Assembly: GCF_900103535.1 (NCBI RefSeq)
Contig: NZ_FNHQ01000027.1
Coordinates: 1 to 35,455 of the forward strand
Length of the DNA: 35,455 bases
From: Megasphaera paucivorans
GTDB lineage: Bacteria > Bacillota > Negativicutes > Veillonellales > Megasphaeraceae
Direction: 5' to 3'
Both the position numbers and the translations under genes were made by a program. The notes beneath the pieces are model-generated. The model searched no databases and was not told the origin of the DNA. It saw only the letters and a program-made list of their open reading frames with translations. Of the stretch, positions 1 to 12,757 are shown one piece after another (positions within the stretch are counted from its first letter, which is position 1; each line of letters starts with the position of its first letter).

Positions 1-347
1 CCGACAACCCCGTTCGCACCCAGCATCCCGATAGAAAAATCAGCAATATGCATAGATCCGCCTTTTCCTTTACAATATCCCGTGGATTTGCCATACAATT
101 CAGCCATCATTTTTTTTACGTCTGCGCCCTTGGCAATACAATGGCCATGACCGCGATGGTTACTTTCGATATAATCTTTATCGGTTAAATTTTCACATAC
201 ACCGACACCACTGGCTTCTTCACCAATATACAAGTGTGTAAAGCCTGGCAATTCACCGGCCAGGAAAATTTCTTCGACCTTAGATTCGTAAGCGCGGATG
301 AGCGACATTTTGCGATACGCATCTTTTAATAAATCTTTGTCATACAT
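1..347 (-). CDS. acoA: Thiamine-diphosphate dehydrogenase E1 alpha subunit (acetoin/pyruvate dehydrogenase), 5' part
   Basis: The first 115 codons are visible; the rest lies outside the window. The protein begins [14 protein letters not shown], the usual start of E1 alpha subunits, and contains the E-x-N-H-R-G-H-G-H segment and the [11 protein letters not shown] segment typical of the AcoA/PdhA family. The thiamine-binding GDG motif would come later and is not seen. The family oxidatively decarboxylates or cleaves a 2-oxo substrate with E1 beta, E2 and E3 partners. A good ribosome binding site (AGGAG) sits 7 bases before the ATG. The sigma-54-type promoter directly upstream argues for acetoin dehydrogenase rather than housekeeping pyruvate dehydrogenase, because acetoin operons are classically sigma-54/AcoR dependent; this last step is inference. 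Confidence 0.88.
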
Positions 348-382
348 ACTATCAGCTCCTTTTTTTATTTGCCCAATAATAA

Positions 383-398
383 TGCAAAAAGCGTGCCT
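383..398 (-). promoter_or_regulatory. Sigma-54 (-24/-12) promoter of acoA
   Basis: Read on the minus strand the site is AGGCACGCTTTTTGCA. The invariant GG (396-397) and GC (384-385) are separated by exactly 10 bases, and GGCACG-N4-TTGCA matches the RpoN consensus nearly perfectly. It lies about 36 bases before the acoA start codon, giving a predicted transcription start near 372. No good sigma-70 promoter competes with it. Confidence 0.85.
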
Positions 399-474
399 AT
401 TTTACATTGTTGTATAATTTAAAAAAAGTAATACTGACTATAACTTTTGATTAACGCTTGTTTTTTTAGGAAAA

Positions 475-602
475 TGAACATTTCAAAATTTTTTTCTTTA
501 TGTTAAATTAAACGTTTTACTATTTTAACATTTACAGTTATAAACAAAAAAAAATACTGATCAGAAACTAAACACATATATTTTTCTGAACAATGACGTT
601 CA
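475..602. promoter_or_regulatory. Candidate enhancer sites for a sigma-54 activator
   Basis: Two inverted repeats share the half-site TGAA(C): TGAA-cat-TTCA at 475-485 and TGAAC-aatgac-GTTCA at 587-602. They lie roughly 105 and 220 bases upstream of the predicted acoA transcription start, the distance normal for upstream activator sites of NtrC/AcoR-type proteins. The activator gene is not in the window. Assignment rests on symmetry and position only. Confidence 0.4.
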
Positions 603-761: not shown

Positions 762-794
762 GTAAATGCCCTTCATTTCCAGAAGGGCATTTAC
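762..794. terminator. Orphan terminator-like hairpin between divergent genes
   Basis: Perfect 13-base arms (GTAAATGCCCTTC at 762-774 and its complement at 782-794) flank a 7-base loop. There is no strong T-tract on either side, so terminator activity is uncertain. It lies between two divergent genes (acoA and rpoN), where neither needs a terminator. The rest of 398-1040 is very AT-rich and shows no convincing coding sequence. The hairpin could end an unannotated small RNA or be a remnant. Confidence 0.45.
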
Positions 795-1042: not shown

Positions 1043-1070
1043 TTGTTAATCCTTTTAATTTTGTTATACT
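1043..1070 (+). promoter_or_regulatory. Probable proximal promoter of rpoN
   Basis: TTGTTA (1043-1048), 16-base spacer, TATACT (1065-1070), in AT-rich sequence. It places the transcription start about 27 bases before the rpoN ATG, just upstream of the AAGGAG ribosome binding site. Confidence 0.5.
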
Positions 1071-1103: not shown

Positions 1104-2441
1104 ATGTATAGAGACCCTACTGTATCCATCGAACAAAAACAAAAGCAAACACTGTCTCAATCCTTATCTATGGCTATTAAACTAACAGAATTGAACGGTA
1201 CCGATATATTATCCTATCTGCAAAATGAAGCACTAGATAATCCATTGATTGAAATTATAGTACCTGAAACTTACCAAAATTCATTAGATGCTCCTTATGA
1301 TTCGTATAATACCGATTTTCCATCATCTGGTAAATCGGCGACAACGGTTATTGAAGCTACGTACTCCAAGCAATGTGAATCTTTATATGATCACTTAAAA
1401 AAACAACTAAGCTATGAAAAAAATATTGCAGAACCTGTAAAAGCACTTACGAAATACTTGATTTCCCAATTAGATGAAAGTGGTTTCCTACGCATTGATG
1501 TAGATACGCTGACCAAAACGCTGCATATTCCGCTACCATTGATGCAAGATGCCATTGCGCTTCTGCAGTCTTTAGATCCCGCCGGCATCGGAGCTCGAAC
1601 ACTTATCGAATGTTATCTTTTACAATTAAGCCGTCTCAACAAAAAACCGGGGCGCTTAGAAGAAATTTTACAAAAATACGGGGACGAGTTATTACATAAA
1701 CGGCTATCAAAAATAACGGCAGCCACACAAATTTCTCCAAAAGAATTATATGCTATGCTGCGGTTTATCCACAAGCTTTCGCCAGCTCCCGGAAAATTGT
1801 TCAATAATGAGACAACAATTTGTGTATACCCCGATTTATTTCTGACATTTGAAGAAAATCGCCCTACTTTACGGTATGCAGACGAAACAATCCCAGGTGT
1901 TCGTTTTCTCCAAGAAGATTACAATAAATATGAAGTAATGGCAGGAGATGTCCGTGATTTCGCCAGACAACGTTTGTCTCACTACAAATTCATACACAGA
2001 GCGTTGGAAATGCGTAAGCGGACATTGCTCTCTGTTGGTACTTTCATCGTCACGCAGCAATTGGATTATTTTATATATGGGTTACCTTTAAAACCTTTAT
2101 CTTTAAAACACATTGCAAATGCTTGTCACATTAGTATTTCCACTGCCAGCCGTACCGTAAAAAGCAAATATATACATACAAATAAAGGGGTCTATAGTCT
2201 TGGTTTCTTTTTAAGCCGGGAATTTACGGGAAAAAAAGAAACCGCTCTTTTATCCGTTTTTCAGATTAAGCAATTACTAACCGATATCTTGAGCAAAGAA
2301 GATCATGAACATCCTTACTCAGATTACCAGTTAGAAAAAATTTTTCAAGCACTGCATATTCCCATTGCACGAAGAACCCTGACAAAATATCGTCGTGCGC
2401 TGAATGTTCCTGATTCACGGTATCGCAAACATCAAACGTAA
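1104..2441 (+). CDS. rpoN: RNA polymerase sigma-54 factor RpoN
   Basis: This is the alternative sigma factor that directs RNA polymerase to -24/-12 promoters and needs an ATP-dependent activator. The 445 residues match the family length. The N-terminal region I (about 1-45) is Gln/Leu rich with the expected LxQSLxMAIKLTELN and LDNPLIE segments. The core-binding domain follows. The DNA-binding part has a helix-turn-helix around 335-360 (HIANACHISISTASRTV) and the RpoN box ARRTLTKYR at 422-430, which contacts the -24 element. AAGGAG precedes the ATG. It is divergent from acoA, whose promoter matches its recognition sequence, and only 21 bases separate it from the next gene, so the two may be co-transcribed. 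Confidence 0.97.
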   Translation: MYRDPTVSIEQKQKQTLSQSLSMAIKLTELNGTDILSYLQNEALDNPLIEIIVPETYQNSLDAPYDSYNTDFPSSGKSATTVIEATYSKQCESLYDHLKKQLSYEKNIAEPVKALTKYLISQLDESGFLRIDVDTLTKTLHIPLPLMQDAIALLQSLDPAGIGARTLIECYLLQLSRLNKKPGRLEEILQKYGDELLHKRLSKITAATQISPKELYAMLRFIHKLSPAPGKLFNNETTICVYPDLFLTFEENRPTLRYADETIPGVRFLQEDYNKYEVMAGDVRDFARQRLSHYKFIHRALEMRKRTLLSVGTFIVTQQLDYFIYGLPLKPLSLKHIANACHISISTASRTVKSKYIHTNKGVYSLGFFLSREFTGKKETALLSVFQIKQLLTDILSKEDHEHPYSDYQLEKIFQALHIPIARRTLTKYRRALNVPDSRYRKHQT

Positions 2442-2462: not shown

Positions 2463-3662
2463 ATGATTAAATATATTATTCGTTCCTGCATTACAGATTA
2501 TAAAAACACCACAGACAAGCTTGTCCGTGAAAAATATAGTATTTTAAGTGGTATTTTAGGTATTATTTGCAATTTATTTTTATTTGTCAGCAAATTTCTC
2601 GTAGGTATATCTATTAATAGCATTGCTATCATCTCCGATGCATTCAATAACTTGAGTGATATGGGTTCATCGTCTATTATTATTATCAGTGCCAAACTAA
2701 GCAATAAACCACCCGATAAAGAACATCCGTTCGGACATGGACGATTTGAATATTTAGCTTCTCTGACCATCGGCATTATTATCATGGTCGTCGGTTATCA
2801 ATTAATCAACGCCTCTGTCCATAAATTTTTTGACCCAGAACCCCTTACTTTCAATTATTGGAGCCTCTGCATATTACTAGTATCTATCGCAATTAAAGGA
2901 TGGATGTATTGCTATAACAATTATATCGGCAGCGCTATCCAATCCAGTGTCAACGAGGCTACTGCTTCCGACAGTATCAATGATGTGATTGCTACCACTG
3001 GCGTCCTCATTACAACGATTATCCAACTATATACAACATTGCCGGTCGATGCCCTTGCCGGTACTGCCATTGGCTTACTGATTCTGTATACCGGTTTTGC
3101 AATTGTCAAAAAAACCGTAAATATTTTATTGGGAAAAGCAGCTTCTCCTGAGTTGACAGAAGCAATCCGCTCCTGTGTCATGAATGGGAAATATATCGTA
3201 GGTACCCATGATTTAAAAATACACGACTACGGGCCGGGCCGTATTTTTGCTTCGATTCACGCAGAGGTACCGGATACCTCTAACCTAGTAGAAGTTCACG
3301 CCATTTTAGATGAATTAGAAGAAGAGCTTTCTGATAAATTTCAAATCGATATCAATATACACATGGATCCATTATGTACAGATCTAAAAATCATTACTCG
3401 CGTACGTCACATTTTGGATCTTATTATTCAAAAGGAATATCCCTGCTATCATACAGATCATTTACGAATCACCTACGGAAAAGCCCGTCTTAATGTTATT
3501 TGTGATTTACACATTCCCCCTACAGAAATGACAGAAGAACAAATGATAGAAATACGAAAAAACATCAATACTGCTATTATTGCATTTAATCCTCGTTATC
3601 GTGTCGTAATTGCTAAATTTATCCCAGAAGACATTCCCTCGAAAAAACTTTTGATTGATTAA
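2463..3662 (+). CDS. Cation diffusion facilitator, probably manganese exporter
   Basis: A 399-residue CDF family metal/proton antiporter in the cytoplasmic membrane. Transmembrane helices lie within about residues 30-220. The signature HPFGHGRFEYLAS is at 88-100. The transport site in helices 2 and 5 reads N62-xxx-D66 and D170-xxx-D174, i.e. N-D-D-D rather than the D-D-H-D or H-D-H-D of zinc exporters. From the literature on MntE-type proteins, N-D-D-D is linked to manganese, so Mn(II) efflux is inferred. The cytoplasmic tail (about 225-399) is roughly 90 residues longer than a minimal CDF and may carry a second ferredoxin-like domain. The ribosome binding site AAGGAG is 7 bases from the ATG. 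Convergent with dnaE. Confidence 0.9.
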   Translation: MIKYIIRSCITDYKNTTDKLVREKYSILSGILGIICNLFLFVSKFLVGISINSIAIISDAFNNLSDMGSSSIIIISAKLSNKPPDKEHPFGHGRFEYLASLTIGIIIMVVGYQLINASVHKFFDPEPLTFNYWSLCILLVSIAIKGWMYCYNNYIGSAIQSSVNEATASDSINDVIATTGVLITTIIQLYTTLPVDALAGTAIGLLILYTGFAIVKKTVNILLGKAASPELTEAIRSCVMNGKYIVGTHDLKIHDYGPGRIFASIHAEVPDTSNLVEVHAILDELEEELSDKFQIDINIHMDPLCTDLKIITRVRHILDLIIQKEYPCYHTDHLRITYGKARLNVICDLHIPPTEMTEEQMIEIRKNINTAIIAFNPRYRVVIAKFIPEDIPSKKLLID

Positions 3663-9227: not shown

Positions 9228-9512
9228 AAAAAAATCCGTCCCTATAAAAGGGACGGATAATAATTCCGCGATACCACCCTGATTCCTGCCGCATCACTGC
9301 CGACAGGCGCTCTACAACGTACCAACATACGCGTTTCCTGTAACGTGGAAATACCGTAGACACTTAATCGAAATTCAGCATCTCTCTTCAGGGAGGATTT
9401 TCATCAACCTGTAAACACCGATTCGCACCACCCACCGGTTCTCTGCAGTTTAACTGAGTCAATTACTCGTTCCCATCATCAGATTTTTACTATGCTTCTT
9501 CAAAAAGAAGTT
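9228..9512 (-). promoter_or_regulatory. T-box riboswitch controlling ilvB
   Basis: The minus strand carries the T-box core AGGGTGGTATCGCGG (9266-9280), which pairs with the CCA end of uncharged tRNA. Stem I closes by AGCAT near 9492-9497 with ATGCT near 9378-9383. Its distal loop includes the usual AGAGAACCGG and GGTGCGAA elements, and AGTA occupies the 5' side of the specifier loop. The 3' side of that loop reads GAAAATCCTCCC. ATC (Ile, 9396-9398) is the best specifier if CCC pairs with the opposing GGG; CTC (Leu, 9393-9395) is the alternative. Low charged tRNA-Ile or tRNA-Leu would favour antitermination and ilvB expression. Confidence 0.93.
9234..9258 (-). terminator. T-box leader terminator
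   Basis: Hairpin with 10-base arms (ATCCGTCCCT / AGGGACGGAT) followed on the minus strand by a run of T residues. It lies just after the T-box sequence and before ilvB, and is the expression-platform terminator of the riboswitch. Confidence 0.93.
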
Positions 9513-9643: not shown

Positions 9644-9720
9644 TGGTCGGAACGGCGAGATTTGAACTCGCGACCTCTTCCACCCCAAGGAAGCGCGCTA
9701 CCAAGCTGCGCCACGTCCCG
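9644..9720 (-). tRNA. tRNA-Pro (anticodon GGG)
   Basis: A full cloverleaf is seen on the minus strand, 77 bases including an encoded CCA end. The acceptor stem CGGGACG pairs with CGTTCCG (one G-T). The D arm is GCGC-AGCTTGGTA-GCGC. The anticodon stem CTTCC/GGAAG encloses TTGGGGT, so positions 34-36 read GGG and decode CCC/CCU proline codons. The T arm GCGAG-TTCAAAT-CTCGC is perfect. It has its own promoter and terminator. Confidence 0.97.
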
Positions 9721-11725: not shown

Positions 11726-12439
11726 TTATTCTGCAATGCAAAATACTTTCTTTATCATCATTTGATGATAAATCCCTTCTAAAACAATATTCCCTGTTTC
11801 ATTTTTACAGCAGCCATTCACTTCTCCTATATAAAACTGCTCAGTTTCTTTTATATCATTCAATATCACAGTTGCAGTGATTATATTACCCAGATATACC
11901 GGTAAAGGAAATCGTACCTGCTTATCTATAAGCACGGCACCTTCTCCTGGCAGCTGTCTTGTCATAACAGTAGAAATAAAGCTTTCTAAAAGAATTTCAT
12001 GAACAACCGGGCCTTTAAAATCATAATAAGACGCAAAATTTTCATCTACATAGACTTTTCCATAATTGCCAGCTAACTTAGAAAAATTGGTAATATCACT
12101 GATAGTAAATTTTTTTACCATAGATACACTTTCACCAATGTGCAATAATTTTTTCTGCCGAATCAAAGAAGCCTCTTCCATCTGCTTTAAATAAACCACG
12201 ACCTTAACAAAGTCATTCTGTGAATATAGAATAAATTTCTTTTTCACAGCAATTAATTCTTCCGCTGCCGCACAGCAGGTAACACAACCGCAAACAATTA
12301 GCCATACATCACACACTTTATCCTCCAGTGTGTGATAAACAAATGTATGTTGCGGAAATTGGTTTATCAGTTTTGTAACTTCGTTAACCCGATCATAATG
12401 ACTATTGCAGCCACCGCAATATTTTATACCAATTTTCAT
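11726..12439 (-). CDS. Cys-rich N-terminal domain fused to a degenerate MaoC-like hot-dog domain
   Basis: The 237 residues fall in two parts. Residues 1-95 carry YCGGC (C8, C11) and a second cluster CGCVTCC (C50, C52, C55, C56), plausible for metal or Fe-S binding; I cannot name the family. Residues about 100-230 resemble MaoC/(R)-enoyl-CoA hydratase hot-dog domains (DITNFSKLAGN, VDENFA, VHEILLES). The catalytic D-x-N-P-x-H is replaced: Asn at 125 where Asp is expected and Val at 130 where His is expected. Hydratase activity is therefore unlikely; acyl-CoA or other ligand binding is possible. I chose ATG at 12439, behind GAAGAG; an ATG eight codons upstream lacks a ribosome binding site. It is directly downstream of a NifU-like gene, probably in one transcript. 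Confidence 0.72.
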   Translation of the reverse strand: MKIGIKYCGGCNSHYDRVNEVTKLINQFPQHTFVYHTLEDKVCDVWLIVCGCVTCCAAAEELIAVKKKFILYSQNDFVKVVVYLKQMEEASLIRQKKLLHIGESVSMVKKFTISDITNFSKLAGNYGKVYVDENFASYYDFKGPVVHEILLESFISTVMTRQLPGEGAVLIDKQVRFPLPVYLGNIITATVILNDIKETEQFYIGEVNGCCKNETGNIVLEGIYHQMMIKKVFCIAE

Positions 12440-12466
12440 AAAACTCTTCTTTCTGTTTGTCATAGA

Positions 12467-12757
12467 TTAAGTATGTTTTGTCATTAATGCTTTTGCCTGC
12501 ATTAATAAATCATCACTGACTCCGGTAATCAAGATAACGTCTTTTATTTCGGGAAAATGTTCTTTCACTTTTGCCGAGATGATTTCTTCTGTTGTCAATG
12601 AAGCCGATGGACAGCCACTGCACTGTCCCGTCAAGCGAATACGTAAAATATTGTCTGTGTAATCATTAATAATAATATCTCCATTATGTTTAGCCAAAAT
12701 AGGCCGAATTTCGTTTTCCAAAAGACTTTCAATGTCTTGCATTGTTATATTCGACAT
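12467..12757 (-). CDS. nfu: NifU-like C-terminal domain Fe-S scaffold protein
   Basis: A 96-residue single-domain Nfu protein that carries or transfers iron-sulfur clusters. It has the diagnostic CSGCPSA (C-x-x-C) and the N-terminal helix pattern with IRPILAKHNGDI. The length is typical for stand-alone Nfu proteins. Upstream lies AAAGGATGTG before the ATG. It begins a two-gene unit with the Cys-rich hot-dog protein 27 bases downstream, which suggests the Cys clusters of that partner could receive a cluster; that is inference. Confidence 0.93.
   Translation of the reverse strand: MSNITMQDIESLLENEIRPILAKHNGDIIINDYTDNILRIRLTGQCSGCPSASLTTEEIISAKVKEHFPEIKDVILITGVSDDLLMQAKALMTKHT

Follow-up and report, generated by a model that had tools for sequence, protein, structure and literature searches.

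An additional sigma-54 paralog next to a conserved sigma-54-type promoter in Megasphaera: a possible private sigma-promoter pair

Main finding and sequences compared

In Megasphaera paucivorans, a gene for the E1-alpha subunit of a 2-oxo-acid dehydrogenase is preceded by a -24/-12 element that, judged from its letters and its conservation, is a real sigma-54 promoter element. The gene divergent from it encodes an additional sigma-54 paralog, named RpoN-W here. We put the chances at about even that RpoN-W, rather than the RpoN-A protein of the family, reads this promoter, the two forming a private pair whose activator would be encoded at an unlinked place. The arrangement suggests a private switch, with one sigma factor for one operon.

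The window, i.e. the whole stretch of 35,455 nucleotides analysed, is contig C61 of a 2.9-Mb genome (G000). Its counterpart L053 (G001:C34, contig JALCNL010000034.1) belongs to a Megasphaera MAG, the nearest relative. This second species (G001) is the only other genome of the genus that was compared, and RpoN-W is represented by these two genomes. All conclusions were drawn from comparison of the window, G000 and Megasphaeraceae genomes at the sequence level.

A -24/-12 element conserved in two species

The E1-alpha gene (positions 3..347, minus strand; acoA/PDH type) is truncated by the contig end, and its 5' part of 115 codons matches Pfam E1_dh; the label "acoA-like" of the first-pass annotation is thus fair as a family name. 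A 756-bp intergenic region (348-1103) separates it from its divergent neighbour rpoN-W. A ribosome-binding site, AGGAG, can be read directly from the letters at 356..360 (minus strand). Upstream of it, AGGCACGCTTTTTGCA at 398-383 (minus strand) forms the promoter AGGCACG-N4-TTGCA, with the -24 GG at 397-396 and the -13/-12 GC at 385-384. Counting 12 bases 3' of the -12 C, transcription is predicted to start at 372 (minus strand).

This element has the GG-N10-GC core in TGGCAC and TTGCA surroundings that defines a sigma-54-dependent promoter. It differs by one mismatch from TGGCACG-N4-TTGCA, and no other site of the window has fewer than two. Taken together, sites with three mismatches or fewer show no excess (17 found, 26.6 expected). 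With our own weights it ranks first among the 183 GG-N10-GC sites of the window, and when the 756-bp intergenic region was resampled 5000 times with a first-order Markov model, a score as high was reached four times. The L053 counterpart, AGGCACACTTTTTGCA, keeps 16 of 17 bases, and the 35-bp leader is identical (35/35), against 618 of 756 positions (82%) for the whole intergenic region. The near-perfect element reported before the acoA-like gene by the first-pass annotation is therefore confirmed.

On the other side of the intergenic region, a sigma-A-like promoter with an extended -10 (TTGTTA-16-TATACT, 1043..1070, plus strand) is predicted before rpoN-W from its consensus match; it is one of 12 sigma-A-like matches in 330-1120, where 5.6 are expected. 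The same region holds a perfect inverted repeat with 13-bp arms and a 7-nt loop (762..794), with arms and loop identical in L053. Among the fetched loci this repeat is present only in copies of the same locus, and terminator prediction around it called none.

RpoN-W, an extra RpoN lineage

RpoN-W (1104..2441, plus strand), found only in this genus, has the AID, core-binding and DNA-binding domains (PF00309, PF04963, PF04552), scores above the TIGR02395 cut-off and carries the RpoN box ARRTLTKYR, all of which identify it as an RpoN protein. It is followed by a CDF cation-efflux gene (2463..3662, plus strand), with no enhancer-binding-protein gene after it. An RpoN match was obtained in 16 of 17 genomes of the family, with up to three RpoN lineages in Megasphaeraceae. 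Both Megasphaera genomes have more than one rpoN, as is the case in dedicated RpoN-paralog systems: two in G000 (C61, C35) and three in G001 (C34, C12, C64). Trees of 19 and 22 RpoN proteins resolve lineage A, present in most genomes, lineage B, and lineage W, made up of the window and L053 proteins only; W, B and the split of W plus B from A each have 100% bootstrap. The neighbour described earlier as the rpoN gene itself is thus an extra paralog; its divergence from and linkage to the acoA-like gene stand, and are kept in the second species.

Within G000, RpoN-W and RpoN-A (C35) are 28.8% identical over 424 aligned residues. A search with RpoN-W against 380 genomes of the class returned no further protein at E 1e-55. 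The best lineage-A protein just misses this threshold (1.3e-54), so that the search speaks against close relatives of RpoN-W and leaves room for weaker ones. Between the two species rpoN-W is under purifying selection (dN 0.043, dS 0.423), with comparable values for RpoN-A (0.036 and 0.451).

The lineages differ in the DNA-reading helix. R383 is retained in all aligned RpoN proteins; lineage A has the pattern RVC-[RHK]-x-R, and the lysine corresponding to E. coli K388 is kept in B and W. According to the available text of PMC5505868, the helix-turn-helix of sigma-54 reads the -12 region, and E378 and R383 cross-link to promoter DNA; a 1992 paper, as cited in PMC3162934, assigned the helix to -13. 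The helix difference would fit a changed -12 code in lineage A, without being proof of it.

Some further features of the window may be mentioned here. A NifU-like and a MaoC-like gene (11726-12757) share 74% and 61% identity with their counterparts at the G001 RpoN-B locus; despite this pair, G000 gave no RpoN-B match. A T-box leader (9246-9488, minus strand) precedes a gene for the large subunit of acetolactate synthase; at 9647-9720 (minus strand) there is a tRNA gene.

Two kinds of sigma-54 promoter in Megasphaeraceae

Promoter recognition by sigma-54 is commonly regarded as near invariant. In 16 genomes of the family we scanned intergenic DNA for sites, allowing any letter at -13, in stretches that cover 62 of the 68 activator genes. 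Sites scoring at least 8 within 450 bp of an activator gene numbered 36, from 12 of the 16 genomes; one from G004, with poor surroundings, was dropped as spurious, leaving 35 sites in 14 target groups. Beside these enhancer-binding-protein genes the letter at -13 is T in 29 sites, with C, A and G in two each. The common class in Megasphaeraceae therefore seems to follow the consensus TTTGGCAYRATTATTTCATATA, with T in place of G at -13; examples are found at L052, L081-L088 and L147-L151. A first tally of 30 sites in 12 target groups, made without the C24/C89 activator and three other sites, gave T 26, C 2, A 2 and G 0. These 30 sites also share an A at -16 (27/30) and a TATA run after TTTCA (28, 28, 28 and 29 of 30). 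The two sites with G among the 35 both precede one PrpR-type activator gene (C24 in G000, C89 in G001). They are weak GG-N10-GC matches that contain GGTATAA in both species (L091:2069-2085, L152:3027-3043), which may be a sigma-A box.

Low-scoring sites show no bias at -13 (G 5, A 4, T 4, C 2; n = 15). The 14 sites beside rpoN-B or rpoN-W have mostly G (G 11, T 2, A 1). Compared with the 35 activator-adjacent sites this gives a Fisher p of 8e-7, a value that is too strong because many sites are orthologous and the groups were chosen afterwards. The acoA gene beside the AcoR-type gene has TTTCA/TTCCA, the acoA-like gene of the window TTGCA.

Neither the -16 A nor the TATA run of the common class is present in the window site. 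On the model built from 35 sites it scores 15.2 and its L053 counterpart 14.9. When each of the 35 sites was scored with its target group withheld, 33 fell in the range 17.0-42.7 (lowest values 17.0 and 19.2), and the C24/C89 pair obtained -2.5 and 1.2. The window site thus falls below 33 of the 35 common-class sites, with a small gap to the lowest members and on sequence alone. On the 30-site model the values are 9.7 for the window and 9.3 for L053, against 15.0-43.4 for all 30. A simple rule by which G at -13 would denote RpoN-W was tried and rejected: three other promoters of G000 with G at this position otherwise match the common class (29.3, 35.8 and 41.3 on the 35-site model; 24.8-39.4 bits on the 30-site model). 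G at -13 by itself is therefore no marker of a promoter unread by RpoN-A.

Genome-wide, GGCAY-N5-TTKCA occurs 44, 26 and 33 times in G000, G001 and G005, against 20, 12 and 15 times for the reversed pattern. In G005, where only one RpoN was seen, seven of the 33 are not within reading frames: six read TTTCA, and one, which is doubtful, reads TTGCA. Four of the six TTTCA sites are followed by a gene and resemble the common class. In G000, 13 of the 44 are located outside frames and followed by a gene; eight of these read TTTCA and five TTGCA, one of each being doubtful.

A comparable arrangement is found at the RpoN-B loci. An HpaB-family gene divergent from the RpoN-B operon has a promoter with TTGCT in all seven genomes that show the gene there (G001, G003, G004, G006, G008, G010 and G013); the fetched stretches of G011 and G016 lack the HpaB gene. 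Six of these promoters were scored on the 35-site model and range from 3.1 to 18.7, the G003 value of 18.7 being among the lowest common-class scores. In G004, the site of an HpaB paralog next to an activator gene reads TTTCA, in contrast to the TTGCT of the RpoN-B neighbours. In five of six genomes the RpoN-B operon itself has a common-class promoter (28.7-38.5; the G001 one scores 13.1), which suggests, at the level of promoter sequence, a cascade from RpoN-A to RpoN-B. Pfam was run on this operon at the G003 locus (L131), where it comprises genes for NifU-like, MaoC-like, metallo-beta-lactamase-fold, LuxE-like and LuxC-like proteins and an AMP-ligase, then rpoN-B, and is followed by a GAFTGA activator gene; L134, L136, L138, L140 and L129 are alike by position.

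Which RpoN reads the E1-alpha promoter

The common class would be read by RpoN-A. For the window promoter, the pairing with RpoN-W outlined above can be described as follows. The rpoN-W gene would be transcribed from a sigma-A-type promoter of its own (1043-1070). RNA polymerase carrying RpoN-W would be poised in a closed complex at 398-383, the predicted sigma-54 promoter of an operon of the 2-oxo-acid dehydrogenase type (E1-alpha, E1-beta, MFS transporter, E2). On receiving its signal, an enhancer-binding protein whose gene lies elsewhere in the genome would then open the complex. The compact regulatory unit proposed by the first-pass annotation gains strength in this respect, because the window promoter differs from most promoters that adjoin enhancer-binding-protein genes in the family. 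Against the pairing, RpoN-W occurs in two genomes only and has no linked activator; moreover, the promoters were sorted into categories once the data had been seen, and orthologs make up many of the sites.

The strongest alternative, to which we give appreciable weight though clearly less than an even chance, is that the element is an ordinary sigma-54 promoter for RpoN-A, or for both RpoN proteins, rpoN-W being redundant or otherwise employed and its adjacency having no regulatory meaning. The element is indeed near the textbook consensus (compare the Clostridiales consensus given below), the three promoters of G000 that carry G at -13 belong in other respects to the common class, and so does mostly the RpoN-B operon's own promoter. 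Conversely, the absence of the -16 A and of the TATA run, with a score below 33 of 35 common-class members, sets the site apart; rpoN-W is under purifying selection, and both linkage and site are conserved in the second species.

More tentatively, the pairing of RpoN-W with the E1-alpha promoter could be part of a wider division of sigma-54 in Megasphaeraceae into insulated channels. RpoN-A would have moved to a new -12 code, TTTCATATA, whereas RpoN-W and RpoN-B, located back to back with their targets, would have stayed on the old GC code; we regard this as possible and somewhat less probable than its opposite. If it is true, RpoN-W and the E1-alpha operon would represent a minimal private sigma-promoter pair.

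Operon content and candidate activators

The 115 residues of the E1-alpha fragment are all identical in L053, where the gene order is E1-alpha, E1-beta, MFS transporter (galactonate/HpaX type) and E2. The window holds just the start of E1-alpha, and the L053 contig ends after E2 with no E3 gene seen up to that point. The best NCBIfam match of E1-alpha is TIGR03182, below cut-off both for the window fragment and for the full-length L053 ortholog (343.7 versus 393.85). Orthologous E1-alpha proteins, 73-78% identical, are encoded in 4 of 15 genomes of the family's second genus, in a longer operon. In G008, annotated with Pfam, it encodes a beta-hydroxyacid dehydrogenase, a 256-residue protein, E1-alpha, E1-beta, MFS, E2 and E3, and a gene for a Crp-type regulator is divergent from it. 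The 256-residue protein (L074:7651-8421), located between the beta-hydroxyacid dehydrogenase and E1-alpha, has no Pfam match (E up to 1e-4). No convincing sigma-54 site was found upstream of the orthologous operon in G005, G008, G012 and G015. Five GG-N10-GC hits lie upstream of or at the first gene in these four genomes; four are in or at coding starts, and the fifth, CGGTATATTATAAGCG in G005, is intergenic with poor surroundings.

A second E1-alpha, 45% identical to that of L053, is encoded on C14 of G000 (L052) together with E1-beta and E2, divergent from a GAF-AAA+ activator gene. We call this activator AcoR-type after its GAF-AAA+ build and the position of its gene; its best NCBIfam match is DhaR, below cut-off. 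The region upstream of the C14 aco operon contains repeated TGAGA/TCTCA blocks that are conserved in G001. Neither TGAGA nor TCTCA is present in 348-1103 of the window. Contigs of both genomes stop in or near an E2 gene (L052 end at C14:8598, L053 start, L073 start), and the C14 E2 closely resembles the L053 E2 by eye, which suggests that near-identical E2 copies in the two operons broke the assemblies.

Two palindromes lie upstream of the window promoter: TGAA-N3-TTCA (475..485), read in the sequence and centred at about -108 relative to the predicted start at 372, and TGAAC-N6-GTTCA (587..602), centred at about -222. The first-pass annotation had noted these TGAA(C) repeats as a pair at enhancer distance. 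Their existence and distance are correct; a palindrome with 5-bp arms such as TGAAC-N6-GTTCA arises in about 28% of resamplings of 401-647, within chance expectation, so that both are kept as candidate activator sites. In L053, TGAAC-N6-GTTCA keeps 9 of its 10 arm bases, in a background of 157 identical positions out of 187 (400-586).

No enhancer-binding-protein gene was found on C61 (the 12 strong activator genes of G000 are all located elsewhere), nor on the orthologous contig G001:C34 (E up to 1e-30). The AcoR-like gene that had been proposed as a search target in the flanking sequence was found on C14 instead. The exact TGAAC-N6-GTTCA occurs at three places in G000. An attempt to name the activator through this site gave no candidate: the two other copies are inside reading frames, and the upstream region of C49/C9 does not have the site. 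Among the five G000/G001 activator pairs compared, a set that does not include C24/C89, C49/C9 is the only one with no convincing adjacent sigma-54 site. By elimination, and as weak evidence, this unlinked orphan activator is for this reason the first candidate for the window promoter.

That the window operon encodes an acetoin dehydrogenase and responds to the AcoR-type activator bound at the TGAAC repeats appears improbable. The gene is indeed an E1-alpha of the aco/PDH type and G000 does encode such an activator. This activator, however, is divergent from an aco operon of its own on C14, whose repeats are conserved in both species and missing from 348-1103; the window operon includes an MFS transporter, and the two E1-alphas have low identity. 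There is no AcoR gene adjoining it on the contig, the divergent neighbour being rpoN in both species. The acetoin/AcoR reading was rejected for this promoter on these grounds. Since the ortholog in G008 is accompanied by a beta-hydroxyacid dehydrogenase gene, and given the operon content and the missing C14-type repeats, acetoin as substrate is unsupported. Of the earlier interpretation, the sigma-54 promoter and the linkage to an rpoN gene are thus retained, and acetoin and the significance of the repeats are not. Less probable still is a chance match, with a sigma-A promoter driving the E1-alpha gene: the AT-rich intergenic DNA is rich in sigma-A-like matches, but the rarity of the element's score among resamplings, the conservation of element and entire leader above that of the region, and the correct placement ahead of the ribosome-binding site and ATG all speak against it.

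Comparison with known systems

One close comparison is the C14 aco operon of the same genome. It resembles the window operon in the order of E1-alpha, E1-beta and E2, in its divergent regulator gene and in its sigma-54-type promoter. It differs in that its regulator is the AcoR-type activator and its promoter is of the common class (TTTCA), in addition to the divergence of the E1-alphas. In Clostridiales, as described in passages of PMC6615313, the AcoR-acoABCL system also has a sigma-54 promoter and upstream activator sites before an aco-type operon; the sites of the window are candidates. There the sigma-54 consensus is TTGGCATNNNNNTTGCT (PMC6615313) and the activator gene is usually linked, whereas in the window an extra rpoN is linked in place of the activator and the repeats of the genome's AcoR-type system are missing. 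The RpoN-B loci share with the window an extra rpoN divergent from a metabolic gene whose promoter departs from the common class; unlike RpoN-W, RpoN-B is followed by its own enhancer-binding-protein gene.

Multiple rpoN copies occur in about 5% of the organisms studied, according to the text available from PMC12316311. In one open-access library, no paper on RpoN lineages of Megasphaera or Negativicutes, or on a TTTCA consensus, was found among the matches listed, and RpoN paralogs with separate promoters and activators were described, in the papers found, only for Cereibacter (Rhodobacter) sphaeroides, an alphaproteobacterium. In Megasphaeraceae, RpoN paralogs come in natural sets next to promoters with different letters at -13, the base to which the helix-turn-helix of RpoN has been assigned. 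The code between this helix and the -12 element could be tested directly with pairs that evolution has perhaps already separated.

In C. sphaeroides, RpoN1, RpoN2 and RpoN3 are dedicated paralogs with their own promoters and activators, according to sections of PMC11999139, and RpoN1 and RpoN2 promoters are distinguished at -11 in the accounts available from PMC11999139 and PMC3162934. As in Megasphaera, one genome has several rpoN paralogs; each one studied in C. sphaeroides is tied to a gene set. In our case RpoN-W has no linked activator and the system is known from its DNA sequence. The Megasphaera pair differs from that of C. sphaeroides in that the contrast between promoters lies at -13 (T versus G) and in a downstream extension, and in that it concerns carbon metabolism in a bacterium of the Megasphaera group.
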